Assembly (NCBI GenBank): GCA_016191325.1
Contig: JACPOV010000008.1
Span: 844,351-908,350, forward strand
Length of the DNA stretch: 64,000 nt
From: Candidatus Dependentiae bacterium
GTDB taxonomy: Bacteria; Babelota; Babeliae; Babelales; JACPOV01
Reading direction: 5' to 3'
Part shown: piece by piece, positions 14,983 through 49,606 of the stretch
How positions within the stretch are numbered: the first letter of the stretch is position 1
Layout of the letters: each line of letters opens with the position of its first letter
Notes under the pieces: generated by a model
Seen by the model: the letters and a program-made list of their open reading frames with translations, nothing else
What the model was told of the DNA's origin: nothing
Database searches by the model: none
Translations under genes and position numbers: made by a program

Positions 14983-15223
14983 CCTACTCTCCTTTTTGTG
15001 CGCACTTCGCGCATGTACACTTATGATTATTTTACTATTTGCAATTAAAACAACGCAATTAATTTTATCATTTTACTTATTAACCCTATTCTTGCGCATT
15101 TTTTTAAGGTGTGGATGAAAATTTATGTGCATGAGAGAAACAGAAAAAACAAAGATTCTTCTATCGCGAAATCACAGAAAAATGATGTAGTTTAAATTTG
15201 AAAAACAAATGAAGGAGATAAAA

Positions 15224-15853
15224 ATGCATACATTTAAAGCTTTTTTGACAATGGTTCTCATTGCCCAACCGTTACAAGCAAAATTTCTCAATTTCGATAA
15301 CCAAACGACGTGGCAAAAAATTGCATTTGGCGCGGGAACTTTGGGCTATTTAGGGTATATGGGATTTAAATATTATTCTTGTGAAAAAAAAGTTGCAGAA
15401 AATAAACTCTTTATAAAAAAACAAGAGGGCAAAGGTACAGTTCCCGCTCCCGATAAAATTGAAAAAATGTTTGAATCAGGAAAATTAGAGCTATTAGCGA
15501 AAAATCCTAACCCAGAATACAGGTGGAAACCGGAGGTGACTCGAATCCTGGCAGAAAATCGCAAATTTGTCCCAGGCTGTCTCACTCATATAACAAAATC
15601 TGCCCTTCATCCATTTGTTATTGAAAATGTATATATAACATTAAGTGAAAAAGATACCCATCAACCATTAATAAAATCAAATTCTCAAGATGAAGATAGC
15701 GACGCGAGCACTATCGGGGATTACGGCAAAAACCGCGTTTCATTTTACGATTCAAAATTCAAGATCAATGGATGGAAAGCGATAGTTTTAGTCCAAGCAT
15801 CTATTGGATTAGGATTATTGTGCCAACAAACGGTGCGTTTAGTGGGTAAATAA
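15224..15853 (+). CDS. Exported two-helix membrane protein, group A member 1
   Basis: 209 residues from the ATG at 15224, preceded by AAGGAGAT; the ATG at 15209 overlaps that site. A signal peptide (to LQAK) precedes a first hydrophobic helix (IAFGAGTLGYLGYMGF), a charged middle domain of ~125 residues, and a C-terminal helix (AIVLVQASIGLGLLCQQ). It shares this plan with the next three genes. No family recognised. It is probably anchored in the inner membrane with the middle domain on one side. Confidence 0.75.
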   Translation: MHTFKAFLTMVLIAQPLQAKFLNFDNQTTWQKIAFGAGTLGYLGYMGFKYYSCEKKVAENKLFIKKQEGKGTVPAPDKIEKMFESGKLELLAKNPNPEYRWKPEVTRILAENRKFVPGCLTHITKSALHPFVIENVYITLSEKDTHQPLIKSNSQDEDSDASTIGDYGKNRVSFYDSKFKINGWKAIVLVQASIGLGLLCQQTVRLVGK

Positions 15854-15964
15854 AAAAGCAATGCAGCTATTAAGAGGCATCATTTATAAAGCTGCAGCTT
15901 ATTTAAAAATTGTTGGCTGTTGCTATACTGAATCGGCTTTAATAATTTTAATGAGAGATTCTTT

Positions 15965-16435
15965 ATGAAAAATTTAATGCGCATTTCTGCGCTCTTAGTG
16001 GTTTTAGCTTTGCCAATGCACGAATCGATCGCAGAGCAACAATATGGCTTTAGCGCTGATTCTTTCTCGAATGCAAAAAAAATTTCGACTGCCGTTGGCA
16101 TCGTCTTTGGAATTGGATTTACTGCATATCAGCGCCATAGAGCAAATAGATTTATACAAAGTGAAAAAAATAATAAGAAGGTCGATGGATCGCACACACT
16201 TAAAACTATCTACGCAACTCTCGGCAGTATCACCAGCGCCACGAAAGATCATTCATTCTTCCCCTGGCAGGTTCAAACGTCAAAAGTTATTGTATGTAAA
16301 AGTGGCTCGGAAGACGAAACTCACGTACATGTGCCACAATTTGGTCCGTTAGTGGGATCTCTGCCAAAAGCACTCTTTACAGTTGGCGCATTTGCACTAA
16401 TCGGATCGCAAATGCTGCGTTCACCTAGTAAATAG
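15965..16435 (+). CDS. Exported two-helix membrane protein, group A member 2
   Basis: 156 residues: signal peptide (ISALLVVLALPMHESIA), helix 1 (ISTAVGIVFGIGFTAYQ) followed by the basic RHRANR, a soluble middle, and a C-terminal helix (ALFTVGAFALIGSQM). The middle contains a VPQFGPLVGSLP segment comparable to HLPTF in the next gene. Unknown function, and distantly related to its neighbours. Confidence 0.72.
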   Translation: MKNLMRISALLVVLALPMHESIAEQQYGFSADSFSNAKKISTAVGIVFGIGFTAYQRHRANRFIQSEKNNKKVDGSHTLKTIYATLGSITSATKDHSFFPWQVQTSKVIVCKSGSEDETHVHVPQFGPLVGSLPKALFTVGAFALIGSQMLRSPSK

Positions 16436-16455
16436 TTTTTTTGATAGTTTCATTT

Positions 16456-16488
16456 AGGGGATCGCATCAAGGCGGCCCCTTCTTTTTT
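16456..16488 (+). terminator. Probable terminator between group A members 2 and 3
   Basis: AGGGG at 16456 and CCCCT at 16476 form a short stem, extended by a CGC/GCG pairing with an internal mismatch, followed by TTCTTTTTT. The ribosome site of the next gene starts directly after it. Confidence 0.5.
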
Positions 16489-16498
16489 AGGAAACGCT

Positions 16499-17053
16499 AT
16501 GATTAAAGCTTTCAAGTTACCTGCTGTATTAATTATTGCATTCTTTTTGCCATTCCAAAATACTTTCATGCCCCGTCTTAATGCGGTCGATTCAAAGACA
16601 GTAGGTCTCTTTTCAGTCGGCGCAGCAACCGGTTTACTTATTTCACTTTTTCATCGCCATTGGGTGCTTGATAAAGTTGCACAAATTAATCAGATGCACG
16701 GTTCTGGTGAACTTTGCGATTCGACGCTTTGGAGTCCACTATCATTTAATGGAATTGATGATTCGGTGATCGGCCAACCGCTTGCTGCATCGTTAGAACA
16801 AACTTCGCCTGGAGAACAATTTGAATATAAACTAATCAGTAGCAGAATCCATTTGCCCACTTTTACGCTTACACAGCATACGATTACGAACGATTATTTA
16901 GTTAACAAAGAAAAAAATGGTAAAAAATTTGCGATTAAAAATCATACAAGTTTTCACGAGGTTAAATTGGGCAGTAGCTATCCATATTTTGCAGCTACCG
17001 CGCTGCTAACATTGGGGACTGGCTATGCATTCACGCTTTTAAATAAAAAATAA
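16499..17053 (+). CDS. Exported two-helix membrane protein, group A member 3
   Basis: 184 residues: signal peptide (LPAVLIIAFFLPFQNTF), helix 1 (GLFSVGAATGLLISLFH) followed by RHW, a middle domain of ~100 residues with RIHLPTFTLTQHTI, and a C-terminal helix (YFAATALLTLGTGYAF). AGGAAA lies eight bases before the ATG. Same plan as members 1, 2 and 4. The next gene follows after 10 bases. Confidence 0.72.
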   Translation: MIKAFKLPAVLIIAFFLPFQNTFMPRLNAVDSKTVGLFSVGAATGLLISLFHRHWVLDKVAQINQMHGSGELCDSTLWSPLSFNGIDDSVIGQPLAASLEQTSPGEQFEYKLISSRIHLPTFTLTQHTITNDYLVNKEKNGKKFAIKNHTSFHEVKLGSSYPYFAATALLTLGTGYAFTLLNKK

Positions 17054-17063
17054 ATCGAGCACA

Positions 17064-17615
17064 ATGAATTATTCTTCTCGCATCCTAGTATTACTATTAT
17101 TATTTTCTCAAAATGCTATTGATTCGTTTGATCAAAAAAATCTTTATGCTGCAGTTGGAATCGGTGCGATCACTTTAGTAGGAGTGCAATGGTGCTATTT
17201 GCATCAAGCTTCAAAAAAAATAATTCATGAAAAAAGAACCCCTTTTATTTTGGAAAAAGAAGATTCATTAAAAGATTATTTACAACCATATTGCCCGATC
17301 TTTTCAAGCATGATTAAACATCAAATTGAAACACACGAGTTAAATAAAAAAAAGAGTGGCGAAACAATTGAATCAACAATTATCTTCAAAAAATATAAAT
17401 TCCCTTTTTTGTTTTGCATACAAAATAATCTCACTTTTGAGCACACCATTCAAGGTGCCGAAAATCCCTTTTCTGAGAATAAAATCGGTCTAGGAAAGAT
17501 TATAAAGCATACCGCACAAGTAAAACCTGTTTTTTATACTGTTCCATTATTGAGTTTTTTTGCCGGCTGGATGTGCGCACGAATAGTTCAATCACATCCC
17601 AAAACTTCTAAGTAG
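17064..17615 (+). CDS. Exported two-helix membrane protein, group A member 4
   Basis: 183 residues: short signal peptide, helix 1 (LYAAVGIGAITLVGVQW), a basic/acidic middle domain with KFPFLFCIQNNLTFEHTI (cf. HLPTFTLTQHTI in member 3), and a C-terminal helix (TVPLLSFFAGWMCARIV). This is the closest relative of member 3 by layout and spacing, and probably arose by tandem duplication. Unknown function. It converges on the transaldolase-like gene. Confidence 0.7.
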   Translation: MNYSSRILVLLLLFSQNAIDSFDQKNLYAAVGIGAITLVGVQWCYLHQASKKIIHEKRTPFILEKEDSLKDYLQPYCPIFSSMIKHQIETHELNKKKSGETIESTIIFKKYKFPFLFCIQNNLTFEHTIQGAENPFSENKIGLGKIIKHTAQVKPVFYTVPLLSFFAGWMCARIVQSHPKTSK

Positions 17616-21800: not shown

Positions 21801-22412
21801 TTGGTATTCTTTTTGCGCAAGCGCCGCTTTCTTTTTGCGATTATCAAGCTCTACGAGCGCATCGGTTTTCTGCGTAGCAAGTTGAGCAACCGCATCTTCC
21901 TGATACACCACTTTTTGATTTGCACTGCGCAGCGCATCAAAATTATAAAATGCACGCGGCTCAATAATTAAAGACTTAAAAGCTGGATCCTTCTTATGCT
22001 CTTCCAGCGCTTTAATATGAGATTCTAGATCGGCCGTAATTTCTTTACGTACAAGCTGCATGTTAAAAAGAGCTTGATGAATTTCATTGAGCGATGAAAT
22101 CTTTTTATTAAAGAAATCGGCATCTCTACCTTGTGCGGTTCGTTGAGCGTTTTTTACCTCTACCAAAGCTCGATCGGTCAGCTCTAGCTGGTTCGCTATT
22201 TTTTTTTGCTGCTCTTGATTTGCAGGCTTCCACTTCTTATCTTCTCCCTTTACATGCTCAAGAAGTTGCTCCTGTTCATCGCGGCCTGCACTGAAAAATT
22301 TTCCAGCCGGCGAATCCAGTAAGCTAGCATTAATTATTGAAACACTCGTCAACATTATCAACAGAGCTCGAATCGCTCCGTCTCGTCCTTTTTGATTATT
22401 CCAAAAGCGCAT
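18849..22412 (-). CDS. Large MscS-family mechanosensitive channel
   Basis: 1187 residues, comparable in size to MscK/YbdG-extended forms. Order: signal peptide, a periplasmic coiled-coil region to about residue 560 (runs such as EKIEKSKTDALEAKDKLYQEIKSL), about ten membrane helices (residues ~600-1000), then the MscS core. The core has the pore helix region GTLLLAIGVVIGSIGYIVKEPIGDFISYF, followed by the β domain FIILVQRPIQVGDYIMI and IIVPNSMILSRPINNW. It should open under membrane tension to release solutes during osmotic downshock. GGAAG precedes the ATG, and it overlaps the end of the RecO-like gene by 17 bases. Confidence 0.92.
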   Translation of the reverse strand: MRFWNNQKGRDGAIRALLIMLTSVSIINASLLDSPAGKFFSAGRDEQEQLLEHVKGEDKKWKPANQEQQKKIANQLELTDRALVEVKNAQRTAQGRDADFFNKKISSLNEIHQALFNMQLVRKEITADLESHIKALEEHKKDPAFKSLIIEPRAFYNFDALRSANQKVVYQEDAVAQLATQKTDALVELDNRKKKAALAQKEYQEKKRAQEDFGSKTVTLFKEFNFAQRGELLDLTERFANYEKQVADLKVIEMVRKISLINTKIFLENEKLKILKENLNKIKGAFRVSDTEVIAAREKIEKSKTDALEAKDKLYQEIKSLTAERERLKRELDLLSRRYAVSERDIASWSITNKTPEGYSAITEIGSKNAQIQLLDRKIEYLHAQIDLEDANFKRQEIGSAILSMWQQVTQRRFKSSDEIGAFVKRFKEQSAETQRELGLLSDKRNATTNLLNLQNKEAANLKAFIQEVQNEQDLVFKRYPTRYTAIIERLADSEKVIAEQIENTSRLIEVESNLIATLDETNKELNFVLGELEAKSIWQRSEYAISWRGLTNFFPDLNVFFKDVQQLAQNAMSKVGWKSFLASFTDLLQRPLLVLMLIACGFLLVLLYNYLRRLIAIIRAWLLAATPIHKIVFYLARISGMILFCIEKHFLPLFIWSIFFVAFSQDFITDLFLKVIFYLVSIPFFLYVATRSVRFIIGLNRTQNYPLFGKSFEPRFASVAYIFSYVSIVVLLFREAFIAATIHKSELPTILLATYSLFLRILVIFAIGRKEVVTFISRQGTIGAWISKYINTYYYLLLAAIVGIMIISDPYVGGYGNLISYILWGAIGTVVLAKLVMIANLYIRRFLSAAYFAADDESTHERFAYAKTLYGLSVIALFIVTLCFAVVVATRIWMIPFSWNDVSQALNFQLFDTGVDKTTGQLIYFTPLKLFVVLSFIAGGFILALLINRFVLKLIFDLLPVDLGVQNTVTSILRYLIIVIAIYFGFQWGGLGTLLLAIGVVIGSIGYIVKEPIGDFISYFIILVQRPIQVGDYIMIDTDYEGVVRKITPRSIILRRRDSYTIIVPNSMILSRPINNWNYARNFIGFDDIDFTVPFDTDPVKVKSLILQVLENNPDVLKSPRPVVRLNDFDENGFRFKVRGFVSDVNIMRKWDIASDVRLGLTKLFREHNIKIAVPTRVIITKQETN

Positions 22413-22989
22413 ATTTACTTCCTATGGCTAAAGTTTTAAAAAGATGTTTCTGAGGATGCAGCGCTACACAATCACGCAACCATTCGGTTAATGCTTGATT
22501 AGTATGGGGATCAAGCATATGGTCTTGGAGTATGATGGGCCCGTTTATCAACTCCTGAATGCGTTCAGTATGCAACATTTCGTCCTCAGGATACATTCCA
22601 ACACTGATAAAAAATCTTAATAAAAATATTTTTTTAAACCAAGAATACGTTATATAATCGGCACCATGCAATAAAAATTCCAGCAAGTAAAAAAGGGATT
22701 CATTACCCGATTCGTGTGGCATGAAGTAATAACAAAGCTCCAGTACGTGATGCAAAAAATAGATTGTTTCGTGAGACATGCACGCAGGAACTGCAACTAA
22801 TTCAATATCTTCCAGTTTGTAAAGAGGGCCGTAAGCTGTTCGATAATAACTTATCAAAAAACCTGGCGCCAAATTCTGCAACCCTTTTGGAGCAGTACCA
22901 TCAAATTTGCCAATTAATCGATCAAAGATAACACACTTGTGCACATTTGGCAGATGCGCCTTAAGGATAATTCCACGGTGCTTTTCCAT
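22396..22989 (-). CDS. Divergent RecO-like DNA repair protein
   Basis: 197 residues. The first ~75 resemble the RecO OB-fold (GIILKAHLPNVHKCVIFDRLIGKF and a following YYRTAYGPLYKLEDIEL strand). The remainder is helical, like the RecO C-terminal domain (YFLHHVLELCYYFMP, FYLLEFLLHGAD, FFISVGMYPED). The four-cysteine zinc site of many RecO proteins is missing. RecO anneals SSB-coated DNA and loads RecA with RecR. The assignment is by shape rather than a diagnostic motif. The only start is the ATG at 22989, with a stop codon immediately upstream. Confidence 0.5.
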   Translation of the reverse strand: MEKHRGIILKAHLPNVHKCVIFDRLIGKFDGTAPKGLQNLAPGFLISYYRTAYGPLYKLEDIELVAVPACMSHETIYFLHHVLELCYYFMPHESGNESLFYLLEFLLHGADYITYSWFKKIFLLRFFISVGMYPEDEMLHTERIQELINGPIILQDHMLDPHTNQALTEWLRDCVALHPQKHLFKTLAIGSKYALLE

Positions 22990-23319
22990 TTATTTGCCTT
23001 ACTTGTAATTGCACGCCTCCTAGTTTATCTAAGGCGTTAATTCATGGCTAGCAAAAAATAGTAAAACTTATCAATCGTCAATTATTTTTAGTTGTAATAT
23101 TATTAAAGATAATCCACATCTTATGGATGATTAAAAAAACAATCAGATTTTTATTAAGAAATATATCATCGCAATTGAGTCGTTTTTAATAGAAGCGCCA
23201 TAATTCAAAATTTTTCATCATACCATTACTACGCAAAAATGATAAAAAAACTCTTTTATAGAATAAATTTTTTTCAGCGTCATCAATTGTCGCTACTGAG
23301 AAAAATTACCAATAAGATT

Positions 23320-23503
23320 GCGCATCCCTCGATACAATTTCTCATTTCATTCGAAATCACTCGGGACGAGCGCCGGTTTAATAGTTCTTCTTTCAATATA
23401 TATGCTTCCAGTCATACCCTGAGAAATTATAAACGAAGGGGAAGCGCCTGCTTAATTGCGCTCGTCCCGAGTGAACGCTTTGCGTTTGTATCGAGGGATG
23501 CGC
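23320..23503. repeat. Dispersed palindromic repeat, copy A
   Basis: An 18-base perfect terminal inverted repeat (GCGCATCCCTCGATACAA at 23320-23337 and its complement at 23486-23503). It encloses a second inverted pair (ACTCGGGACGAGCG and CGCTCGTCCCGAGT). It is related to copies at 29259, 42651 and 53237 through the CCTTCGATACAATTTC core, here CCCTCGATACAATTTC. Confidence 0.85.
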
Positions 23504-23636
23504 AAAAAAGTAACAAACCCGCAGATTAACCACTTTTTATGACACATTCTCGCGTTCCACTATAAAAACAGCCCGCCCAGGACAGTTTTCAAATAGAAAC
23601 TAATTCGGGAAATGATTGCTTTGTAATTATTATTAA

Positions 23637-23667
23637 TTGTAATATTAAATTGTATTATGCCTATAAT
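23637..23667 (+). promoter_or_regulatory. Possible promoter of the six-gene secreted operon
   Basis: TTGTAA at 23637 and TATAAT at 23662 with a 19-base spacer, 32 bases before the first ATG. The region is AT-rich, so other hexamer pairs are possible. Confidence 0.3.
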
Positions 23668-23698
23668 TATAAAGTTTTGATAAAAAAGGGAGATTGAC

Positions 23699-24277
23699 AT
23701 GAAGAAATTTGTCATGTTAATTGTGGCGTTTTTAATAGCGATGCCAATAATGGCAAAAGATATTACGTTAGACGATACCGTAAAGGCGTTCTTTACCGAA
23801 CAATTACCAGCAAAATTTGGCTCACTCGTAAGAGTTAAACCACTCAACTCGGTGGGCGGCATTGGAGAAGTTGCGCGACCTGCTCAGTTTTTCACTCAAG
23901 CTGGCAGCGGCGACATTCGCTATACCGGTCTCAATCCTAACTACAATGAAGTACTTACCTATATAGACAATTTCTTCAGCAAATTAGGATCTGAAGATCA
24001 TGGTATTTATCTGAAAAAATTTGATTATTCAACGCTTCCAGGATGGTCTGGCTTTGATATCAATAAAGCAAATATTTCAGCAAAATTGCTCGATATCTAC
24101 AAAAATCCAACCGCGTATGCGCAATACAAAGTGGCTACGTATGAAAGCCCCGCATACAACATTTATGGAAAACTTGGAGGCTTACGAAAAACTGCGGCTG
24201 AGCAAGATGCACCGTATATTACTCGTAATGTAGAAGTTTATTATATTCCACATGCAATTAATATTAATTATAAGTAG
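23699..24277 (+). CDS. Exported module protein 1 of six
   Basis: 192 residues: signal peptide (VMLIVAFLIAMPIMA) then two copies of the operon's ~60-residue module. Module 1 (about 28-70) has VKAFFTEQL and SLVRVKPLNSVGGIGEVARP. Module 2 (about 82-188) has YIDNFFSKL, an insertion, KVATYESPAYN and the terminal VEVYYIP. The ribosome site GGGAG precedes the ATG. No known family recognised. A periplasmic or secreted location is inferred from the signal peptide. The first gene of the operon ending at 27046. Confidence 0.8.
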   Translation: MKKFVMLIVAFLIAMPIMAKDITLDDTVKAFFTEQLPAKFGSLVRVKPLNSVGGIGEVARPAQFFTQAGSGDIRYTGLNPNYNEVLTYIDNFFSKLGSEDHGIYLKKFDYSTLPGWSGFDINKANISAKLLDIYKNPTAYAQYKVATYESPAYNIYGKLGGLRKTAAEQDAPYITRNVEVYYIPHAININYK

Positions 24278-24285
24278 GAGAAACA

Positions 24286-25002
24286 ATGAAGAAACAATTA
24301 TTAGCACTTGCGCTTTTTGGCGCAATTATTGGTACAGCGTTAGTTGACGCAGCGCCAGCAAAAACAAACGTAATTATTACACGAAACAAGACGTATTTCT
24401 TGAATCGTGCTGATACGTTCTTTAAAGGTCTAAAAGCAGAACATCCAAATACGATCATTATTCATCGCAGCGCGGGAACTGCTCCAGTTCAAAACGTTAT
24501 AGCTACGTATGAAAACCCAAAATATAACGCTAACACAGCTGCAGCCGGTGCTCAATTACAAACAGTTGAAGTTGGCTTTAAACAAGGAAGATCTGCATTG
24601 CCAGGCAGCGATGAACATGAAATATTAGCTCAAATTTCTGATTTCTTTGCGAAACTTAAAAAAGACAACTCAAACTTCGTAAACATACGTAAGTCTGAAG
24701 GAACTCAACAACTAGGCACCGAATTTGCATCGTTCAAAAATCTCGCGATTTCGAAAAAAGGCAAAGCGGGAAGCTCTCTAAATATGGTATCTGTTGAGTA
24801 TGCGCCAAGCGAAAAAGCAAATAACGGTAAGCTCATTGGCTTGATCAAGGCAAAAAGAGCATCTAGACCTACACAAGCATACAAAGGTCCGATAACTGAG
24901 CAAGAATTAGAAGAACTTAACAAAGGCGCAACTAAAGAAGCGCTTGATGCAGATGTAACAAAACGAGAAATAATTAATAACCAACGCTCTGGCAACTTTT
25001 AA
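24286..25002 (+). CDS. Exported module protein 2 of six
   Basis: 238 residues and the clearest example of the module. After the signal peptide (ALALFGAIIGTALVDA), copy 1 runs from RADTFFKGLKAEHPNTIIIH through RSAGTAPVQNVIATYENPKYN to QTVEVGF. Copy 2 runs from QISDFFAKLKKDNSNFVNIR through KSEGTQQLGTEFASF to NMVSVEYAP. A charged ~60-residue C-terminal extension follows. It starts eight bases after the previous stop, with TAGGAG upstream. The function is unknown. Confidence 0.82.
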   Translation: MKKQLLALALFGAIIGTALVDAAPAKTNVIITRNKTYFLNRADTFFKGLKAEHPNTIIIHRSAGTAPVQNVIATYENPKYNANTAAAGAQLQTVEVGFKQGRSALPGSDEHEILAQISDFFAKLKKDNSNFVNIRKSEGTQQLGTEFASFKNLAISKKGKAGSSLNMVSVEYAPSEKANNGKLIGLIKAKRASRPTQAYKGPITEQELEELNKGATKEALDADVTKREIINNQRSGNF

Positions 25003-25028
25003 TAAGTAGCTTGGTTAACTGAAAAATA

Positions 25029-25104
25029 AGGGATTCAAATGCAAGCACTCTAGGACGGGAGGTCATAAACGATAGCCCTTCTGTTTGCAAGCAAGTGAAT
25101 CCCT
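25029..25104 (+). promoter_or_regulatory. Possible structured RNA element between module genes 2 and 3
   Basis: AGGGATTCA at 25029 pairs with TGAATCCCT at 25096. Further partial pairing of TGCAAGCA-type flanks and an alternative AAGGG/CCCTT pairing are possible. It ends about 20 bases before the ATG of gene 3, close to its ribosome site. It could tune translation or mRNA processing within the operon. Confidence 0.4.
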
Positions 25105-25124
25105 CTTTCTCTAGGGGAAATGGT

Positions 25125-25622
25125 ATGAAGAAAATAGCTCTCTTACTTCTAGTGCTTACGCCACTTTCAATGCACGCATTATTTAAACCTGTCGGCATAC
25201 CCGCAGAACAATCTATAGCACAAAAAGTACTCGCAAAAAAAAGAAGCAATTTGATTGCTGCAATAAATAATCTTTTTGCATCAGCGCAAGCTGAATTTCC
25301 CGGCCGCTACTCCCTATCATTTAAAAATACGCAGCAAGGAGAGATCCTCGCGCAAATAGCAACGCCTGAAAGTATGCAAATAGGAACTACTGGCAATCAA
25401 TATAAATTTCAAGAATTAAGCTGGAATGGTGGAGGCCAAATAACAAGAGATGAACTGGCTCGAGCGCAAGTCGCATTTCAAACTATTTGGGGAAAACTTA
25501 AAGAGCTCCAAGATGGCGTTCATTTTAAAATAGTTAAACATGAAGATCCTTCTGCAGAAACTATTGGTTGGTTCATATCGCCCTATCAAAAAAATAAATA
25601 TTATTTGCAATGGAGTAAATAA
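25125..25622 (+). CDS. Exported module protein 3 of six
   Basis: 165 residues from the ATG at 25125 (GGGGA upstream; the GTG at 25095 lies within the preceding hairpin). Signal peptide (IALLLLVLTPLSMHA). Module copy 1 (INNLFASAQAEFPGRYSLSF ... EILAQIATPES) and a degenerate copy 2 (WGKLKELQDGVHFKIVKHEDPSAETIGWFISP). The stop codon overlaps the start of gene 4 by one base. Confidence 0.75.
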   Translation: MKKIALLLLVLTPLSMHALFKPVGIPAEQSIAQKVLAKKRSNLIAAINNLFASAQAEFPGRYSLSFKNTQQGEILAQIATPESMQIGTTGNQYKFQELSWNGGGQITRDELARAQVAFQTIWGKLKELQDGVHFKIVKHEDPSAETIGWFISPYQKNKYYLQWSK

Positions 25623-26149
25623 TGAATACAAAAATACTCCAATTGATAACGATAGTTTTAGTTCTTTCTGGACTCAATATTTCTATAAGCGCAATGGTGG
25701 AACCCCTCATTACGAGAAATGAAGTACTGAAAGAAATTGAGAACACCGTTTCATCGATTCAAAACGTAAAATTGATCAAAACAAAAGATGAATATAACAA
25801 AGCTAAATCGCATTATACGTGGATAGCACAATACGATAAACCGAGCTATAACAACGGTCGACTCAATAAAAATATTAACACCCTTGTGAATAATTCACTG
25901 CCTCAAGTAATTGTCTATGGCAATCCATCAAGCGCCGCACTTACTAAAGAAGTTTACGAAAAATTACAAAAAATAAATGGCGTTCAAATGAGCACCGGAT
26001 CAGTTGTAGATACCCAACCCAAAGACAGCCACTTGGTAGGTAGCGTACTTACTTCTGATGGCAAAACTGCGCGTATCTATTTTGTACCGGTAGCGAAAAA
26101 AACCACAGCACCGATTGGTCAAATTCCCGGCATACCGCCGCGAAAATAA
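25622..26149 (+). CDS. Exported module protein 4 of six
   Basis: 175 residues. Signal peptide to about ISAM. Copy 1 has the signature as IENTVSSIQNVKLIKTKDEY followed by WIAQYDKPSYN. Copy 2 is more diverged (VYEKLQKINGVQMSTGS ... LVGSVLTSDGKTARIYFVPV). The start codon at 25622 overlaps the preceding stop (TAATG), so translation is coupled. Unknown function. Confidence 0.75.
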   Translation: MNTKILQLITIVLVLSGLNISISAMVEPLITRNEVLKEIENTVSSIQNVKLIKTKDEYNKAKSHYTWIAQYDKPSYNNGRLNKNINTLVNNSLPQVIVYGNPSSAALTKEVYEKLQKINGVQMSTGSVVDTQPKDSHLVGSVLTSDGKTARIYFVPVAKKTTAPIGQIPGIPPRK

Positions 26150-26180
26150 AGTTTTAGAGGGGATAAAAAAAGGGGATAGT

Positions 26181-26576
26181 ATGAAGCGCATTGCACTCGT
26201 CACTTTATTCGCGGCCGCATCTTTGCTCGCGATAATATCTTATCGTACTAAACTATCTGCAATGGTGGGTGCCGGCGTTCCACTTCAAGCCGCAGATTCT
26301 GAAGCTGGCCGTGCCCAAGCAGAAGTATTAGATTACAATTTTAGGTACGGGCACGACTTACGCTTATTGCACCGTGCGTATAGATCTTTGCTGCCAAAAT
26401 ACCCTGGCGTTCTCGGGCTTACAACAAGAGGAAATCCTCCTGCCGGCTCAACGGTTCTAGATAAATATAAAAATCCTGGTTATATAAGTACTGCTGGAAG
26501 TTCAGAATATGCGACGATTTATCTTATTAACCAAGAAAGGCCGGTCGGAATACCTGGCCAAGCGCAGGGAAGATGA
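26181..26576 (+). CDS. Exported module protein 5 of six
   Basis: 131 residues from the ATG at 26181, with AGGGGAT upstream; the earlier in-frame start at 26115 overlaps gene 4 and precedes the signal peptide. Signal peptide or anchor (LVTLFAAASLLAIIS). A single module (LHRAYRSLLPKYPGVLGLTTRGNPPAG then LDKYKNPGYIS and ATIYLI). The stop overlaps the next ATG (ATGA). Confidence 0.75.
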   Translation: MKRIALVTLFAAASLLAIISYRTKLSAMVGAGVPLQAADSEAGRAQAEVLDYNFRYGHDLRLLHRAYRSLLPKYPGVLGLTTRGNPPAGSTVLDKYKNPGYISTAGSSEYATIYLINQERPVGIPGQAQGR

Positions 26577-27046
26577 AGAAAATTATTACTTTATTAATAC
26601 TTTGTTCAAGCATTTTAGCGTTGAATGCAAAATACGATACCGATTATTTTAACGATTTCGATACTTTTTTTACAAAACTATCGGAGCATTACCCTGTTTC
26701 AATTTGTAAAAGAAACATACCGCTTGAGCAAGCAGAAAAAGAAAAGGCAACTCGCGGAGAAAAAATCGCGACCTACCACTGGAATATTTATGGCCATGCA
26801 CCTCAAGTTGTTTTAGCAACCGTAACCTTAAATTCTGCAGATGAAGAATCTAGAATGAAAGTACTGAAAAAAATTGATGAACATTTCACTGATGAAGCAA
26901 AGAACGATTCTCATCTCGTATTGCGCCGCAAAACTGGAACGCCCATTGGTGATCCTATTGCTCACTATCAAAATCCTGAATACGTGTCCGCAAACTTACG
27001 TCCAGGAGGACAAGGAAAAATTGTTGAGGTACGTTTAGTTCCTTAA
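26573..27046 (+). CDS. Exported module protein 6 of six
   Basis: 157 residues. Signal peptide (LLILCSSILALNA). Copy 1 (FDTFFTKLSEHYPVSICKRN ... GEKIATYHWNIYG ... ATVTL) and an excellent copy 2 (IDEHFTDEAKNDSHLVLRRKTGTPIGDPIAHYQNPEYVS ... VEVRLVP). The last gene of the operon: a strong terminator follows 26 bases later. Confidence 0.8.
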   Translation: MKKIITLLILCSSILALNAKYDTDYFNDFDTFFTKLSEHYPVSICKRNIPLEQAEKEKATRGEKIATYHWNIYGHAPQVVLATVTLNSADEESRMKVLKKIDEHFTDEAKNDSHLVLRRKTGTPIGDPIAHYQNPEYVSANLRPGGQGKIVEVRLVP

Positions 27047-27071: not shown

Positions 27072-27105
27072 AAAAGAGCACGCTTTTTAAAGCGTGCTCT
27101 TTTTT
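27072..27105 (+). terminator. Rho-independent terminator of the six-gene operon
   Basis: AAAAGAGCACGCTT and its complement form a 14-bp stem around a four-base loop, followed by TTTTTT before GTTTTG. On the minus strand the A-rich side also gives a short T-run, so it may end the convergent M3 peptidase transcript too. Confidence 0.93.
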
Positions 27106-27144: not shown

Positions 27145-29229
27145 TTATAATCCGAGATCTTTAAAGAAGGCGTTGCTGTTCGGTTCTCTGCCGAGGAAAT
27201 CTTTCAGCAAATCATTAGGATCTTCGCTGCCCCCTTTGCCCAAAACTTTATCAACGTATCGTTTCCCAACTTCCCCATTGAGCAATCCACGTTCTTTTAT
27301 GTAATTAAATAAATCGAGCGCAAATACTTTAGACCATAAATAACTGTAATAACTTGCTCCGTATCCAGTTAAATGGCCAAACGAAGCAACAAAATGATCA
27401 TCGGGAGAATATTGCCCATATTTACGCATCTTTTGAAAAAGAGTTTTAGTTAAATTCTCAATATCTGGATGCGCGCCAGAACTAAAAAGTTTCAGCGCAA
27501 GATTTGCTATGTAAATTTGGCGCATCATTGCGGTTCCTGATGCAAAATTCTTTTGCTCAACAAGCGTCTTGATAAGTTCATCTGGCAGTGGTGCGCCAGT
27601 TTTATAATGCTTGCTTAATTGTTTTAAGATAGCAGGATCCCAAAGCCATTCTTCTAGCATTTGAGAAGGCATTTCTACAAAATCGGTTTTTACGTTGGTG
27701 CCAGATGTTGATGGCAATTTAGTTGCGCCTAGAATTGTATGCAACGCGTGCCCAAATTCGTGAAAGAAAGTGCGTACATCATCAAGCTCCAAAAGCGATG
27801 GCTCGGTTGCTGTTGCTTTAGGAAAATTAGAAATTACAAGCGCTAGCGCCGTTTGTCGCCGCCCTTCTGAATTAATAAATCCTGGTATAACGGTCATTTG
27901 GCAAGCATGGCAATATTTATTAAAACGCGGATGAAGATCCAAAAGTAAATATCCCAAGATAGCCCCAGTTTCTTTTGAAGAAACTTCAACGAGCTTAATT
28001 TCAGGATCCCAATAACTGCCTGCGGGCAATTCTTTGAATTCTACTCCCAAAAATGCTCGATAAATATCAAGCAGCCCTTTAATGGTGCTTTCTAACGGAA
28101 AATACTCAGCTATTTCTCGTTGATCAATTTTAAAATGTTTTTTTTCATACATCGTTTGCGCATGAGTGCGATCCCATGCATAAAATTTATTGCTTGGGCT
28201 CAATTTTACCGATTCAGGCAGATCGGTAATAAGTTGTTTAAATTCTTTATCCTCTTTTGCCTGCGCACGCTTGAGAAGATCATCTAAAAATGCTTGCGCG
28301 CGCTCAGGGGTCTGCGCCATTTCGCCATCAATATTGAGAGCTGCGTAATTTGAATAACCAAGAAGCCTTGCAAGTTCATCACGTTTTTCAATTAATTTTT
28401 CCAGAACTTTCATATTTTCTGGATAGGCGCGATTAGCAAACTCTCTCCACAATTTTTCTCGCGTAGCTGCTAGAGTAGAATTTTCCATAATAGGAAAATA
28501 AATAGGATAAGCGGTTGTCAGTTTATAGTTGTTGTCACCTGTTTTTTCAAGTCCTTCAATAAAGCGATCGTCAAGCCCGGCAAGCTCTTCACGCGTTACT
28601 TCGATTGAACGCTCAGAACCATCGATATTTTGGCTGAATGCTAACCCAATCTCGGCAAGCTCTTTATTGAGTTTTTTTACTTGTTCGCGTATTTCTTCCG
28701 GTTTATCAATGCCAGAACGCTTATATTCTTTCATCGATTCATCAAGAACATACTGCTGATCTTTGGTGAGATTTTCCTTTTTCGCATTTCCTTCGTAATA
28801 CGCTTTTACCGCCTTATAAAGTTCCACATTCTGGCTAAGTAAATCTACCGAGAGGTTACTCATTTCTAGTAACTTTTCTCGCGCCGTATCGCGCATTTTA
28901 TCGTCGCTATAGGTAGATTTTATAACGCTTGCAATACGCGCAGGTATTCCAAAAAAATATCCAGCTTGTTCTGATGCATAAATAGTATTCGCCCACGTCC
29001 GTTCGTTATCAGGAATTGCAAGAATTGCTGCAATATCTTTTTTTATCTGCGCCATCGCATTATCCATTAAGTTTCTTAACTCAGATGGAGTTTTGGGAAA
29101 AATATTTGGAATATCTTCAACGGTAAAATTCGGATAATCGATAGCGCGCACATCTGGATGCTTTACAAATAGGTATAAGCCACCTGCAGCAATTGCTACT
29201 AACATCGCACTTAAAATTATTTTCTTCAT
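27145..29229 (-). CDS. M3-family oligopeptidase with N-terminal membrane anchor, copy 1
   Basis: 694 residues. The zinc-binding HExxH is in FFHEFGHALH near residue 489, with the downstream third-ligand glutamate in DFVEMPSQMLEEWLW. The substrate-site YGASYYSYLWSKVFALDLF region fits M3A peptidases (oligopeptidase A / dipeptidyl carboxypeptidase type). An N-terminal hydrophobic segment (residues 3-22) places the enzyme at the membrane, probably facing the periplasm, which is unusual for M3. It cuts short peptides. A close paralogue lies directly upstream at 29432. Confidence 0.92.
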   Translation of the reverse strand: MKKIILSAMLVAIAAGGLYLFVKHPDVRAIDYPNFTVEDIPNIFPKTPSELRNLMDNAMAQIKKDIAAILAIPDNERTWANTIYASEQAGYFFGIPARIASVIKSTYSDDKMRDTAREKLLEMSNLSVDLLSQNVELYKAVKAYYEGNAKKENLTKDQQYVLDESMKEYKRSGIDKPEEIREQVKKLNKELAEIGLAFSQNIDGSERSIEVTREELAGLDDRFIEGLEKTGDNNYKLTTAYPIYFPIMENSTLAATREKLWREFANRAYPENMKVLEKLIEKRDELARLLGYSNYAALNIDGEMAQTPERAQAFLDDLLKRAQAKEDKEFKQLITDLPESVKLSPSNKFYAWDRTHAQTMYEKKHFKIDQREIAEYFPLESTIKGLLDIYRAFLGVEFKELPAGSYWDPEIKLVEVSSKETGAILGYLLLDLHPRFNKYCHACQMTVIPGFINSEGRRQTALALVISNFPKATATEPSLLELDDVRTFFHEFGHALHTILGATKLPSTSGTNVKTDFVEMPSQMLEEWLWDPAILKQLSKHYKTGAPLPDELIKTLVEQKNFASGTAMMRQIYIANLALKLFSSGAHPDIENLTKTLFQKMRKYGQYSPDDHFVASFGHLTGYGASYYSYLWSKVFALDLFNYIKERGLLNGEVGKRYVDKVLGKGGSEDPNDLLKDFLGREPNSNAFFKDLGL

Positions 29230-29258: not shown

Positions 29259-29393
29259 CACCCTTCGATACAATTTCTCACTACTCTCGAAATCACTCAG
29301 GGCGAGCGGATCTTGGGCTCGAAAATCTATCCGAACCGCTCGTGGTGAGTGTTTTGCGAATCCTAAGAGCAAAATGTATCGAACCATGGCGGA
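29259..29393. repeat. Dispersed palindromic repeat, copy B
   Basis: The left half is CCTTCGATACAATTTCTCA...CACTCAGGGCGAGCGG. The right half is CCGCTCGTGGTGAGTG...AAAATGTATCGAACC. The right half is a diverged inverted copy of the left, so the element can fold into a long hairpin. It lies between the two M3 peptidase genes. Confidence 0.85.
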
Positions 29394-45339: not shown

Positions 45340-45696
45340 ATGAAAAAAAATACTTTACTCATCATTCTTCTTAGTTTGCTGAGCTATACAATTTCTGCAG
45401 AGCCAGGAAAGCTGCAACAGTTCTTTTCACATCCGGCAACACCAATAGTTTTTGCTGGCGCTGGAATTTATTCGGTTTCCAGAATTATGAATAATATAAA
45501 TGTCAGAAAAGTGCACAATCAGGCTAACAAAATTGCAAATCCTCCTCAGCCTGGAAGATTATATCACGTTAACCCTTATGACCTTGTTAGATTATTCATT
45601 GCAGGCGATAGCACTGTATGCGGAGTTGCTGGAGCTCTTTGCTTTGGAATTTCAGCTGTAAGTGCATATTTCGCATTAAAATCACGCAATAAATAA
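45340..45696 (+). CDS. Small exported two-helix protein, group C member 1
   Basis: 118 residues: signal peptide (LLIILLSLLSYTISA), FFSHPATPIVFAGAGIYSVSRI as helix 1, a loop rich in Asn and His, and a C-terminal helix (VCGVAGALCFGISAVSAYFAL) ending in a basic tail. The gene directly downstream is a close paralogue sharing F-SHPAT. Unknown function. Confidence 0.75.
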   Translation: MKKNTLLIILLSLLSYTISAEPGKLQQFFSHPATPIVFAGAGIYSVSRIMNNINVRKVHNQANKIANPPQPGRLYHVNPYDLVRLFIAGDSTVCGVAGALCFGISAVSAYFALKSRNK

Positions 45697-45700
45697 TTTT

Positions 45701-46044
45701 ATGATAAAACTACATTCTTTTTGTTTAACTCTTACACTCTTTTTTTCTTTTAATATTGCGTTTTCTGAAAAAGCCCGATTCGGAAAATTCATTTCTCATC
45801 CAGCAACTTATACTGGATCGATCGCCGTTGCTTCAGAATTTGGTGCTCTTTGGTCCCTCACAAACATTAGGGAATCTAGATTCTTTAAAACGAGGAATCT
45901 TGCACGAGTAAATGCAGGCAGCCACGGTAATCCTGTCGACGCACAACTTGCTACAAAAAAAATAGGATTCAATACCATTGTAGGTATTGGCTTTTAGGAT
46001 CTTCCATTTTTTTCAGCTATTTAACGGTGAACCATCTTAAATAG
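45701..46044 (+). pseudogene. Small exported two-helix protein, group C member 2, frameshifted
   Basis: The open frame (45701-45997, 98 residues) has a signal peptide and FISHPATYTGSIAVASEF like member 1, but stops inside the second helix after NTIVGIGF. Shifting by one base near 45990 restores LLGSSIFFSYLTVNHLK and a stop at 46044, which rebuilds the second helix and basic end seen in member 1. One base is missing near a TTTT run: either a recent mutation or a sequencing error. Confidence 0.7.
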
Positions 46045-46145
46045 TATAAAATTCGCCTGCAGTTGACAAAATCCCCACTTTTTTATAAAATTTATAATAG
46101 AAATATAAAATCGAGCAAAAATCACTGTGTACAAAATGGAAAAAA

Positions 46146-46550
46146 ATGAAAAAATTACTTTTTTTAAATTTACTTTTAATCTGCTGCGGTAATAGTTTTG
46201 CTGAATCTGCTGAAAAGCTAAACCCTTCTTTCATGAATGCATTTCTGGATATAAAATTCAATCCCTCAATTATGCAAACAGTTTCAGTATGTTCTTTCTT
46301 TTTTAGTATCTACCAATCACAATTAGCACATATACAACAATCGGAGTACATTCGGCTTTGCAATCTGGAAAGGCGATTAAGCGCAGACAGACCAGATATT
46401 CATTCGCATCCTTTGCATCCAACCTTGGTTAATAATGCAAATATCGGAAAACAAGAAAGAATCCTCGATCACAGATTTCATTCTCGCATGTCGAATGCTT
46501 CTCTTGCTCTTGCAGCGATTACAGGATTCTTAGCATACATAAACAGATAA
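46146..46550 (+). CDS. Small exported two-helix protein, group C member 3
   Basis: 134 residues: signal peptide (LLFLNLLLICCGNSFA), helix 1 (SIMQTVSVCSFFFSIYQ), a His/Arg-rich loop, and a C-terminal helix (SNASLALAAITGFLAYI). Same plan as neighbours, with little sequence identity. It has its own upstream AT-rich spacer. Confidence 0.68.
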   Translation: MKKLLFLNLLLICCGNSFAESAEKLNPSFMNAFLDIKFNPSIMQTVSVCSFFFSIYQSQLAHIQQSEYIRLCNLERRLSADRPDIHSHPLHPTLVNNANIGKQERILDHRFHSRMSNASLALAAITGFLAYINR

Positions 46551-46578
46551 ATTTCCCTCAAATGAAAGTGATTATTAT

Positions 46579-46908
46579 ATGAAAAAAAATATAAAAAAAT
46601 TACTATGCGCAGCTCTTTTTTTGAGTATAAGTTCATCAGCATTACCAGCTGATGGCTGGCAAATACCGTTAATTTCAAAACTGGCTGATTATTCAAAAAC
46701 ACGGTACGCCGCTCTTGCAATTTGCACGATGTGGACAGCAGCTTCACTTGCAAAAACCTACAAATGGTACAGTCCTGATTCAGATGCAAATTTACCCCCA
46801 GAGATCCGCAAAAACGGAATTTTAATTAATGCTGGTATGGCTACAGTATTTGGCGGTGTAGGTTTAGCAATCTACGTTTGGCCTCATTTAAAAGCCTTGT
46901 ATTCTTAA
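46579..46908 (+). CDS. Small exported two-helix protein, group C member 4
   Basis: 109 residues: signal peptide (LLCAALFLSISSSALPA), helix 1 (YAALAICTMWTAASLAK), a short loop with DSDANLPPEIRKN, and a C-terminal helix (GMATVFGGVGLAIYVWP). Unknown function. Confidence 0.68.
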   Translation: MKKNIKKLLCAALFLSISSSALPADGWQIPLISKLADYSKTRYAALAICTMWTAASLAKTYKWYSPDSDANLPPEIRKNGILINAGMATVFGGVGLAIYVWPHLKALYS

Positions 46909-46989
46909 TAATTTTTCAATTCATATTTCGTTTTTTTCTATATAATTCTTTCAGTATTTCGTGTATTTAATTTCACTTGAAAGGATTAT

Positions 46990-47340
46990 ATGCAATTGCT
47001 TAAAAAAATAGCATTCCTCACGTTAATCGTACTTTTTGCCAATCCAACTCAACAGATTATGGCAGTTCAAAAATCTCAGGGGTGGACGCTCAAAAAGGCG
47101 ACCTATTTTGGCGCCAAAATAGCTCTCCTGGGCGCTGCGGGCTACATTACCTATTTTTCAGGCTCTGCTCTGTGGAAACACCTGAAGAATATTGATTTTG
47201 AAGCACATAGAAGAAAAATTTATGAAGAATCGTATGAACATCCATGGATTGCGCTTGGCGTCACCGGCCTCGTTATTTATGGAGGCTATTATCTCTTTAA
47301 TTCATGCCTTGATGATGTAAAATCCCCTACTGATAGCTAA
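46990..47340 (+). CDS. Small exported two-helix protein, group C member 5
   Basis: 116 residues: signal peptide (IAFLTLIVLFANPTQQIMA), helix 1 (YFGAKIALLGAAGYITYF), a charged loop (HRRKIYEESYEHP) and helix 2 (WIALGVTGLVIYGGYYLF). GAAAGGA precedes the ATG. Unknown function. Confidence 0.68.
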   Translation: MQLLKKIAFLTLIVLFANPTQQIMAVQKSQGWTLKKATYFGAKIALLGAAGYITYFSGSALWKHLKNIDFEAHRRKIYEESYEHPWIALGVTGLVIYGGYYLFNSCLDDVKSPTDS

Positions 47341-47434
47341 TTTAAGCTTTTCATGCAGCGACCTATAAAAATTGTCGCGGTTGCTTAATTTTTCAATTGT
47401 GATAAATTAATAATAGCAAATAAATGGAGGTTAT

Positions 47435-47899
47435 ATGTTATTTTTTAAAAGATTTAAATTGCAGTTTTCACTACTAGCACTGTGTTGCGTATCAATGCAA
47501 ACATTGCCAGTAGATTATTTTGATAGCTCTAAAATTGAAACAACCAGCCAAGCAACGGGTGCATTATTAGCATTTGGCGCTACAGCTGCCTGCGCACTTT
47601 ATTGCGGATATTTAGCTAAAAATTCAGGTATCCAACAACAAAGAGAAAATAGCGAATCTGAAGTTACCCAAGAAAGCATACCAGAAGATCGTAGATGGCA
47701 TGAAAGTGCATCGCTCTTTGCTCGTGCTCGAAATTATTTTTTGAGTATAAGAAACAATCGTGGAAATGCAGGTAATCCTCTTCAATCTCAATCTTTCAAT
47801 ATAGCTCCATATTTTTGGGGAACAATCTCAGGGCTTGCCTTAATTCGCAGCGCTGTGCTTGCTCGAGCATTATATGACTATTATAGCAAGACCGCATAA
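47435..47899 (+). CDS. Small exported two-helix protein, group C member 6
   Basis: 154 residues: signal peptide to about QTLPV, helix 1 (TGALLAFGATAACALYCGYL), a longer polar loop with many Asn, Ser and Glu, and a C-terminal helix (GTISGLALIRSAVLAR). TGGAGG lies before the ATG. The next gene starts one base after its stop codon. Confidence 0.7.
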   Translation: MLFFKRFKLQFSLLALCCVSMQTLPVDYFDSSKIETTSQATGALLAFGATAACALYCGYLAKNSGIQQQRENSESEVTQESIPEDRRWHESASLFARARNYFLSIRNNRGNAGNPLQSQSFNIAPYFWGTISGLALIRSAVLARALYDYYSKTA

Positions 47900-47900
47900 T

Positions 47901-48356
47901 ATGAAGCTGTTTTTAAAAATAGTTATGACTTTTCTCGTGATGAGTACTGCAACGCAAACTAACGCGGGTATAACCAAATGGGTTAGAAATCATCCACAAA
48001 CTTCAGCCGCAATATTCACTGGAACGATCCTTTCTTTCTCGCTTGCTTCTGGAAAAATAAAACTACCGCCTTTAGATAAAGCCTTTTCAAACATTTCAAC
48101 TATGTCTGAAGCTTTTAGCGACATCTGTACTAATGCGAAATCTCTAGCTATCTGGAGTTGCTCTTTTTTAAATATGCCAGATGGTGCTCGCAATACTCTT
48201 CAATCAACGAAAGCATTAACGCTTTTCTTATTGAAGGTGTCAATCATCGGCTCAGGAAGCATTGTGTTATTCGCCCCCACATTATTTAGGCTTGCGGATT
48301 ACTTATCTCAACGATCTCAAAATAACTCACATAATCAAGAAGAATTTCAAAGATAG
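47901..48356 (+). CDS. Small exported membrane protein, group C member 7
   Basis: 151 residues from the ATG at 47901; the in-frame ATG at 47859 is inside the previous gene and precedes the signal peptide. Signal peptide (IVMTFLVMSTATQTNA). WVRNHPQTSAAIFTGTILSFSLA recalls the F-SHPAT helix of members 1 and 2. A C-terminal helix follows (LLKVSIIGSGSIVLFAPTLF). Confidence 0.7.
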   Translation: MKLFLKIVMTFLVMSTATQTNAGITKWVRNHPQTSAAIFTGTILSFSLASGKIKLPPLDKAFSNISTMSEAFSDICTNAKSLAIWSCSFLNMPDGARNTLQSTKALTLFLLKVSIIGSGSIVLFAPTLFRLADYLSQRSQNNSHNQEEFQR

Positions 48357-48366
48357 GAAAATAAAA

Positions 48367-48714
48367 ATGAAATTACAAAAATATATTTTACTCACATTGA
48401 TGCTGCTTTTACCAGTAGCTCCAATTCATTCTAAGCCATTATTGAGCATAATCACAAATGGATTCCTTGCTGTTGGCTCAATTAAGTGTGCACAAATCTG
48501 TTTTGAAACTTTCAAAGAAGCTAAAAAAAATAATGATGAACAATACGCTGAGAAATTAAATACACCATATGCAGATAGATCATTAAATTTGCAGCAAGCA
48601 AAAAATGATTATTATTTTAATATCGTGGATGATGAACGGCACATATTTGGTTTATTTTTCGGTGGGATTTTTTCTTTAGCAGCAATAAGTTTTCTTAATG
48701 AAGCTATCCAATAG
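48367..48714 (+). CDS. Small exported two-helix protein, group C member 8
   Basis: 115 residues from the ATG at 48367, ten bases after the previous gene, with TAGGAAA upstream. Signal peptide (ILLTLMLLLPVAPIHS), helix 1 (IITNGFLAVGSIKCAQICF), a charged loop (EAKKNNDEQYAEKLN) and helix 2 (IFGLFFGGIFSLAAISF). Confidence 0.7.
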   Translation: MKLQKYILLTLMLLLPVAPIHSKPLLSIITNGFLAVGSIKCAQICFETFKEAKKNNDEQYAEKLNTPYADRSLNLQQAKNDYYFNIVDDERHIFGLFFGGIFSLAAISFLNEAIQ

Positions 48715-48828
48715 AAACAAATATTAAAAGCTTTCGCATTGTAAGTGGCATCTGCTTAAGCTAGATTGCATATGATGCCGCAAATGATTATTATAAGTGC
48801 AAAAAATAATCAATAAGCAGAGGCAATT

Positions 48829-49167
48829 ATGAAATTAATGCATCAATTAACACTTATACTTTTAGCTATCACCTATTCAGTCGCTAACGCAAATCCACCA
48901 GAAATCAATTGCGTAATCCAGCGACAATCCGATTCGGTTAAACAAATAACTTCGGGAACGATAGGAGTCTTTGGACTAATATTAACTTGCGGCATCTACG
49001 CTACAGCACAAAAGCTCAATCAAAATAATTATCCATGCGCAAGCAAAACTGTTGCATTGATTGGGCACAGTTCAGCTGCTTTATCAGCCATTTTTCTTGC
49101 AGGCGGATTCGCGTATGGTACACCAATAATACGATCTGAAGAGTGCGCTCGCCAGTTTGGCAAGTAA
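48829..49167 (+). CDS. Small exported two-helix protein, group C member 9
   Basis: 112 residues: signal peptide (LTLILLAITYSVANA), helix 1 (SGTIGVFGLILTCGIYATA), the loop QKLNQNNYPCASK, and helix 2 (SAALSAIFLAGGFAYG). It is a clear paralogue of member 10, sharing QNNYP in the loop at the same distance between helices. Confidence 0.74.
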   Translation: MKLMHQLTLILLAITYSVANANPPEINCVIQRQSDSVKQITSGTIGVFGLILTCGIYATAQKLNQNNYPCASKTVALIGHSSAALSAIFLAGGFAYGTPIIRSEECARQFGK

Positions 49168-49282
49168 TCTTTTTTACTAACAAGTTTTTATTTTAGCGAC
49201 CACACCTGGCGAATATAAGTATTATTGGCGGTCTATTTTATCATCCTTAATTTTATTGCCCATCAGGGATTTAAGACGTTTC

Positions 49283-49606
49283 ATGAAATTATTACACACA
49301 ATTCATATATTTGTTTTTTCGTTCCTCATTACGCATTCTTTAACCAGTGCTCAACCAAATGATTTTTCTAAGGAGAATGATCAAAATAATCTGGTAACGG
49401 CTGGCTATGGTGTTGGATCTTGCCTTTTAGTGATGGCGGCTGGAGGTCTTGATACTGCTAAACATTATTTCAGACAAAATAACTATCCGCGATCAGAAAA
49501 ATTATGCGGATACGCAAGCCATGTTTGCCTGGGGACAGGGATATTCCTTTTTTTTGGGACGTTGTATAGAGTAGTTGACCTTCCCGATCAATTGAAAAAA
49601 AACTAA
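49283..49606 (+). CDS. Small exported two-helix protein, group C member 10
   Basis: 107 residues from the ATG at 49283, the start of the signal peptide (LLHTIHIFVFSFLITHSLTSA). Helix 1 (GYGVGSCLLVMAAGGL), the loop HYFRQNNYPRSEKL, and helix 2 (HVCLGTGIFLFFGTLY). Paired with member 9 as a tandem duplication. Confidence 0.74.
   Translation: MKLLHTIHIFVFSFLITHSLTSAQPNDFSKENDQNNLVTAGYGVGSCLLVMAAGGLDTAKHYFRQNNYPRSEKLCGYASHVCLGTGIFLFFGTLYRVVDLPDQLKKN

Follow-up and report, generated by a model that had tools for sequence, protein, structure and literature searches.

An exported domain family in a conserved gene cluster of a Dependentiae bacterium

What kind of protein family is encoded by six neighbouring genes for small exported proteins in an obligately host-dependent bacterium, and why might such genes stay together? 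The question is raised by a co-directional cluster on the + strand (positions 23699-27046) of a 64,000-nucleotide (nt) stretch of a Candidatus Dependentiae genome (contig JACPOV010000008.1), the whole of which is referred to here as the window. A first-pass annotation of the sequence had ascribed to all six genes a signal peptide and a common module. Our analysis indicates that the cluster holds a real exported domain family, unnamed to our knowledge, in a conserved location. The genes are listed below with their lengths in amino acids (aa), the start codons of g3 and g5 having been corrected to ATG 25125 and ATG 26181.

23699..24277, + strand: gene 1 (g1), 192 aa, exported; expanded module in the second half, about residues 84-186; orthologues in 4/4 genus members
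24286..25002, + strand: gene 2 (g2), 238 aa, exported; two clear modules, then a charged C-terminal tail
25125..25622, + strand: gene 3 (g3), 165 aa, exported; module membership not demonstrated
25622..26149, + strand: gene 4 (g4), 175 aa, exported; the module is its first half
26181..26576, + strand: gene 5 (g5), 131 aa, exported; conserved RYGHDxRxLHRAY helix, then one module; the most constrained gene
26573..27046, + strand: gene 6 (g6), 157 aa, exported; two modules, the second clear

As the first-pass annotation had stated, six genes with signal peptides are present: all N-termini are Sec-type, starting with positive charge and containing a hydrophobic core, as called from hydropathy alone. 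By the same measure, no second hydrophobic or transmembrane-like segment lies outside the signal peptide in any of the six proteins. They would thus be exported to the periplasm or beyond.

A recurrent module of about 60 residues, with the order helix-strand-strand-strand, is found across the proteins of the cluster. Its copies were assessed with leave-family-out hidden Markov models (HMMs), built from the clear families g1b, g2a, g2b and g6b minus the tested module's own family, against 508 decoy reading frames taken from the window and from related loci, those of cluster proteins being excluded; the best decoy score was 8 bits. Both modules of g2 are recovered (g2a, 57 bits, E 1.5e-16; g2b, 30 bits, E 2.6e-8), as are those of g6 (g6b, 35 bits, E 9e-10; g6a, 14 bits, E 0.002), and g1b reaches 12 bits (E 0.008) in the window and 35 bits (E 5e-10) in its orthologue from UR.bin19. 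Module g4a scores 18-21 bits in two orthologues (E 1e-4, 2e-5) and nothing in the window copy; the g5 module is weak, with 13 bits in an orthologue from the sister genus and 3 bits in the window. Four further copies, g1a, g3a, g3b and g4b, score at or below the decoys, and three of them (g1a, g3b and g4b) do not pass a comparison with shuffles either. Profile-profile comparison of the mature parts, with signal peptides cut and columns shuffled as controls, links g1-g2, g1-g6, g2-g6 and g4-g6 at 89-98% (g4 vs g6, 89%), and places g5 above the shuffled controls at only 14-15%, with g2 and g6. In the same comparison g3 is unlinked to the other cluster proteins, its best probability being 4.9%, to g4; it was set aside as a module protein after its 87% similarity to g4 fell to 5% upon removal of the signal peptide.

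Of about eleven modules originally proposed, therefore, g1b, g2a, g2b, g4a, g6a, g6b and, weakly, g5 are retained, and g1a, g3a, g3b and g4b are not, so that by sequence comparison module homology is demonstrated for about seven of the eleven. At least g1, g2, g4 and g6 are, on these comparisons, paralogues built from one or two module copies, and g5 is probably another. The proposal of one module common to all six genes is not supported, since membership of g3 was not demonstrated; the g3 protein may belong to the family in strongly diverged form, or else be exported but unrelated.

Conservation within the module falls on the hydrophobic core, a glycine and an NPxY turn, and no catalytic-looking residues are conserved across modules; this pattern fits binding modules. 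The helix and the three strands would be held by the hydrophobic core and the (A)xYxNPxY turn. As no motif of the module is better conserved than NPxY/F, one may also think of short-linear-motif mimicry, in which the turn is displayed to host adaptor domains of the PTB/FERM type. We consider this very improbable: the motif sits where a strand ends, beside the core, and its conservation is that expected of a structural turn; some copies (g2b) have lost it; and an integrin-tail peptide in the PDB was matched only at chance level (E 6).

Structure prediction is in line with the helix-then-strands order that had been read from the sequence. The AlphaFold2 model of g2 gives helix-strand-strand-strand (H-E-E-E) twice (predicted local distance difference test, pLDDT, 74; predicted template modelling score, pTM, 0.73; alignment of nine sequences), and that of g5 has three strands after its helices (pLDDT 76, pTM 0.62; alignment of three sequences). 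The H-E-E-E order thus agrees between g2 (twice) and g5 from separate alignments, an agreement in the order of helix and strands only; because the alignments are shallow, a new fold is not claimed. In the gene-5-type modules of G003, G002, G004 and G036 (two), one cysteine lies in strand 1 and another at the start of strand 3. The pair is present in 5/5 copies from other species and both residues are absent in the two closest species, and cysteine is nearly absent from the mature parts of the six window proteins. This joint presence or absence suggests a disulfide and is consistent with a disulfide-stabilised exported fold.

That the module belongs to no named family, as initially suggested, is borne out by every search made. 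Scans of the six single proteins against Pfam, NCBIfam and PHROGs gave nothing above cut-off; among the 25 Pfam families listed for 31 family members, none matched more than one member; sequence profiles against the PDB gave no match or chance-level ones (best E 0.88); and Foldseek found no match at E<=0.001 for the g2 and g5 models against the PDB or for the g2 model against viral models. The only resemblance to beta/gamma-crystallin is an 18-residue stretch around NPxY that matches beta-B2 crystallin (PDB 2bb2) at chance level (E 1.5); crystallin is a Greek key pair, whereas the predicted topology here is a helix and then three strands. Cystatin-like/PepSY and BLIP/BamE (SmpA)-type domains are likewise small, exported and non-enzymatic, with one or more helices followed by antiparallel strands and sometimes in tandem. 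This likeness is no more than a lead, to which the module contributes its predicted H-E-E-E order; these domains are not among the 25 Pfam families, and no Foldseek neighbour was found at E<=0.001.

The order g1-g2-g3-g4-g5(-g6) is kept between the same neighbours in 4/4 genus members analysed, with single additions or losses. In G001 there are seven genes, one extra being of g6 type; G003 (metagenome-assembled genome, MAG, UR.bin19) has an extra g1-type gene and lacks g6; and G002 (MAG SW_41) has an extra g3-type gene. Gene counts are therefore 6, 7, 6 and 7 across the genus, and two in the sister genus (G004), where two exported genes occupy the same site and one of them is related to g5 (profile E 5e-6). 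Outside the family, the module is found in G062 (leave-out E 1e-5; independently, E 0.0096 with the full g2 profile), in its genus-mate G063, and probably in G036, which was itself in the profile in later searches; altogether, it occurs in 7-8 of 101 Dependentiae genomes. Confinement to the lineage holds so far at the level of the Dependentiae phylum, on the basis of a scan of 84,980 species with g5 that returned only two records, both from Dependentiae. Weak matches in G024, with phage-like surroundings, and in a 1630-aa frame of G070 were judged to be chance. Carriage as phage or plasmid cargo was also rejected, as g2 in phages and viral contigs and g5 in plasmids and viral contigs gave nothing above chance.

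The cluster is anchored by two neighbours, both on the opposite strand.

22396..22989, - strand: left neighbour, a 197-aa conserved gene, recO-like by eye with no Pfam match; anchor of the conserved site
27145..29229, - strand: right neighbour, an M3-family peptidase (Pfam PF01432, E 1e-116); the other anchor, adjoining the cluster in 4/4 genus members and in the sister genus

This constant adjacency, together with an N-terminal hydrophobic segment in the window peptidases that could place them in the same compartment, might suggest that the cluster proteins are exported to regulate or inhibit the M3 peptidases next to them. We give that account little credence. The cluster lies on the opposite strand, and in four genomes of two other families (G026, G016, G034 and G025) the M3 peptidase, the 197-aa gene and an mscS-type gene directly adjoin one another at an empty site. 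The adjacency is thus ancestral and no evidence of a functional link, and the most economical reading has the cluster inserted into this gene order in the present family. In other families, as in G007 and G005, the 197-aa gene is flanked by unrelated exported genes that run antisense to it, as the cluster does in the window (loci L099, 2390-2950; L115, 2184-2822), and the space they fill is possibly a hot spot for exported genes.

How old is the set, and under what selection has it been kept? The first-pass annotation had inferred a rapid divergence of adjacent copies under changing selection, which would make this a fast-changing surface or secreted family engaged in an arms race. Some observations speak for it: between the two closest species, identity is only 59-65% for g4 and g6 (35-41% of positions differ) vs 83-93% for the flanking genes, and the number of genes varies as described. 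However, the ratios of nonsynonymous to synonymous divergence (dN/dS) between the window genome and G001 are 0.17, 0.27, 0.14, 0.25, 0.06 (0.057) and 0.23 for g1 to g6, next to 0.08 for the two peptidases and 0.15 for the 197-aa gene, all rough values with dS near saturation for several genes. At the level of whole genes none points to positive selection, which was accordingly dropped. The most constrained gene, g5, stands at 97% identity, and its R-GHD-R-L-RAY helix is invariant in the genus. Furthermore, in a tree of 30 modules the branches sort by paralogue rather than by species, with 8 label changes where shuffling gives 20.9 on average (0/200 shuffles as low). As modules group by gene and not by genome, most duplications predate the genus, and a recent tandem expansion is ruled out. 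The claim of rapid divergence thus gives way to one of old paralogues in fixed order in 4/4 genus members, and we judge an arms race improbable. The products may interact with a host or competitor, as was also suggested.

What, then, might such a set do? We tentatively favour, at a little short of an even chance, a stable set of co-expressed, non-enzymatic binding proteins exported through Sec, perhaps subunits of one assembly. Distinct paralogues long retained in fixed order favour non-interchangeable partners, and the clustering of modules by paralogue implies that each position keeps its own identity, as expected for distinct partners. The paralogues would accordingly act together, for example as subunits of a heteromeric envelope or secreted assembly, with g5 as its conserved core. 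Several points weigh against this reading. The paralogy of g3 is not demonstrated by sequence comparison; the divergence of g4 and g6, and a g6 that is missing in one species with a g6-, g3- or g1-type gene added in others, are loose for a fixed complex; and a conserved cluster can also consist of independent secreted proteins.

The last of these points is the core of a possible, albeit rather unlikely, alternative, namely that the locus is a small effector island whose products leave the cell independently, by Sec and then type II secretion or vesicles, each binding a component of the protist host. An exported family without relatives is what might be met in a lineage of intracellular parasites, and in other families the site is filled by unrelated exported genes, as a cargo hot spot would be. 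Export signals are carried by 44% of the proteins of Chromulinavorax, with ORFans enriched (PMC6561590), and type II secretion is the sole system detected in Babela (PMC4378268); given this large exported share in cultured Dependentiae, with its many ORFans, and the single secretion system of Babela, envelope and extracellular fates are both possible. The exported ORFans of Babela massiliensis and Chromulinavorax destructans, as presented there, resemble the cluster proteins in being small, exported and without relatives, and in coming from an intracellular lineage where such genes abound, and the module family is not described in the parts of these papers that deal with them (PMC6561590; PMC4378268). 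Unlike those families, however, the cluster is a fixed multi-gene set of old paralogues. This fixed order of old paralogues and the purifying selection on them argue against independent effectors, as do the absence of any eukaryote-like domain and of any sign of recent bursts in copy number.

Dependentiae have many exported proteins without a name, and among them the cluster is a defined unit, with a recognisable signature, a fixed locus and g5 as its most conserved core. By itself this is not surprising, because lineage-specific exported families are common in Dependentiae genomes. Were the proteins to make up a single assembly, this phylum of protist parasites would possess an unknown structure, either secreted or of the envelope; otherwise they are still a family that could be curated. 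We think unlikely the bolder proposal that the fold is absent from the PDB and that the paralogues form a heteromeric envelope or secreted assembly specific to this host-dependent Dependentiae family and inserted into an ancestral operon of M3 peptidase, 197-aa gene and mscS.

Co-expression would depend on the layout of the presumed transcript, whose non-coding features, all on the + strand, are the following.

23590..23698, + strand: leader/promoter region of g1, kept in 4/4 genus members, with an invariant GTAATATTA box, a Shine-Dalgarno sequence and ATTGACATG
25003..25124, + strand: intercistronic hairpin between g2 and g3; arms 25029-25047 / 25086-25104, apical GGACGGGAGGTC at 25053
27072..27103, + strand: intrinsic terminator, a 14-bp, near-perfect palindrome that could also serve the convergent peptidase gene

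The terminator closes the cluster as first proposed. The coupling of the genes by overlaps applies to two junctions only, g3/g4 (1 nt) and g5/g6 (4 nt), the others being separated by gaps of 8 nt (g1/g2), 31 nt (g4/g5) and 122 nt (g2/g3), the last with the hairpin. This gap folds into a long hairpin in 4/4 genus members (z -2.0, -2.5, -3.2 and -4.8), and the apex GGACGGGAGGTC is identical in three species while the remainder has drifted, which suggests a conserved RNA structure. Covariation amounts to one two-sided change and several breaks, in three usable sequences that are too few to inform. A run of U follows the hairpin on its 3' side in UR.bin19, and less so in the other species. A model of the hairpin matches only the g2/g3 gap in three genus members, a single copy per genome, other matches having E>=0.002 and being mostly incomplete. 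It is not a known RNA by comparison with Rfam, where no match was found at E<=1. The hairpin may split the operon; acting as a partial terminator or processing site, it would set the level of g1-g2 apart from that of g3-g6.

A step in synonymous divergence from G001 over 22396-27046 also falls near the g2/g3 junction. Divergence is low to the left (0.21-0.41 for the 197-aa gene, g1 and g2) and about 1 to the right (g3, g4, g6 and the peptidases), with g5 at 0.49, and the step may mark recombination between species.

Upstream of g1, positions 23318-23505 contain nested perfect inverted repeats with arms of 20 and 17 bp, of which G001 retains remnants only. Related GCTCGTCCCGAGTGA-like copies at 29293 and 42726 point to an element resembling repetitive extragenic palindromes or miniature inverted-repeat transposable elements (REP/MITE-like). 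The window has just two copies of the box TTGTAATATTA (23092-23102 and 23637-23647), one at each end of the interval separating the 197-aa gene from g1, and its core GTAATATTA is invariant upstream of g1 in four species; with one mismatch allowed, its count is at chance level.

Two more runs of small exported open reading frames with no obvious function lie elsewhere in the window, at 45340-49606 and 15209-17615. Within the former, similarity is found only between neighbouring pairs (48829-49167 / 49256-49606, E 8e-7).

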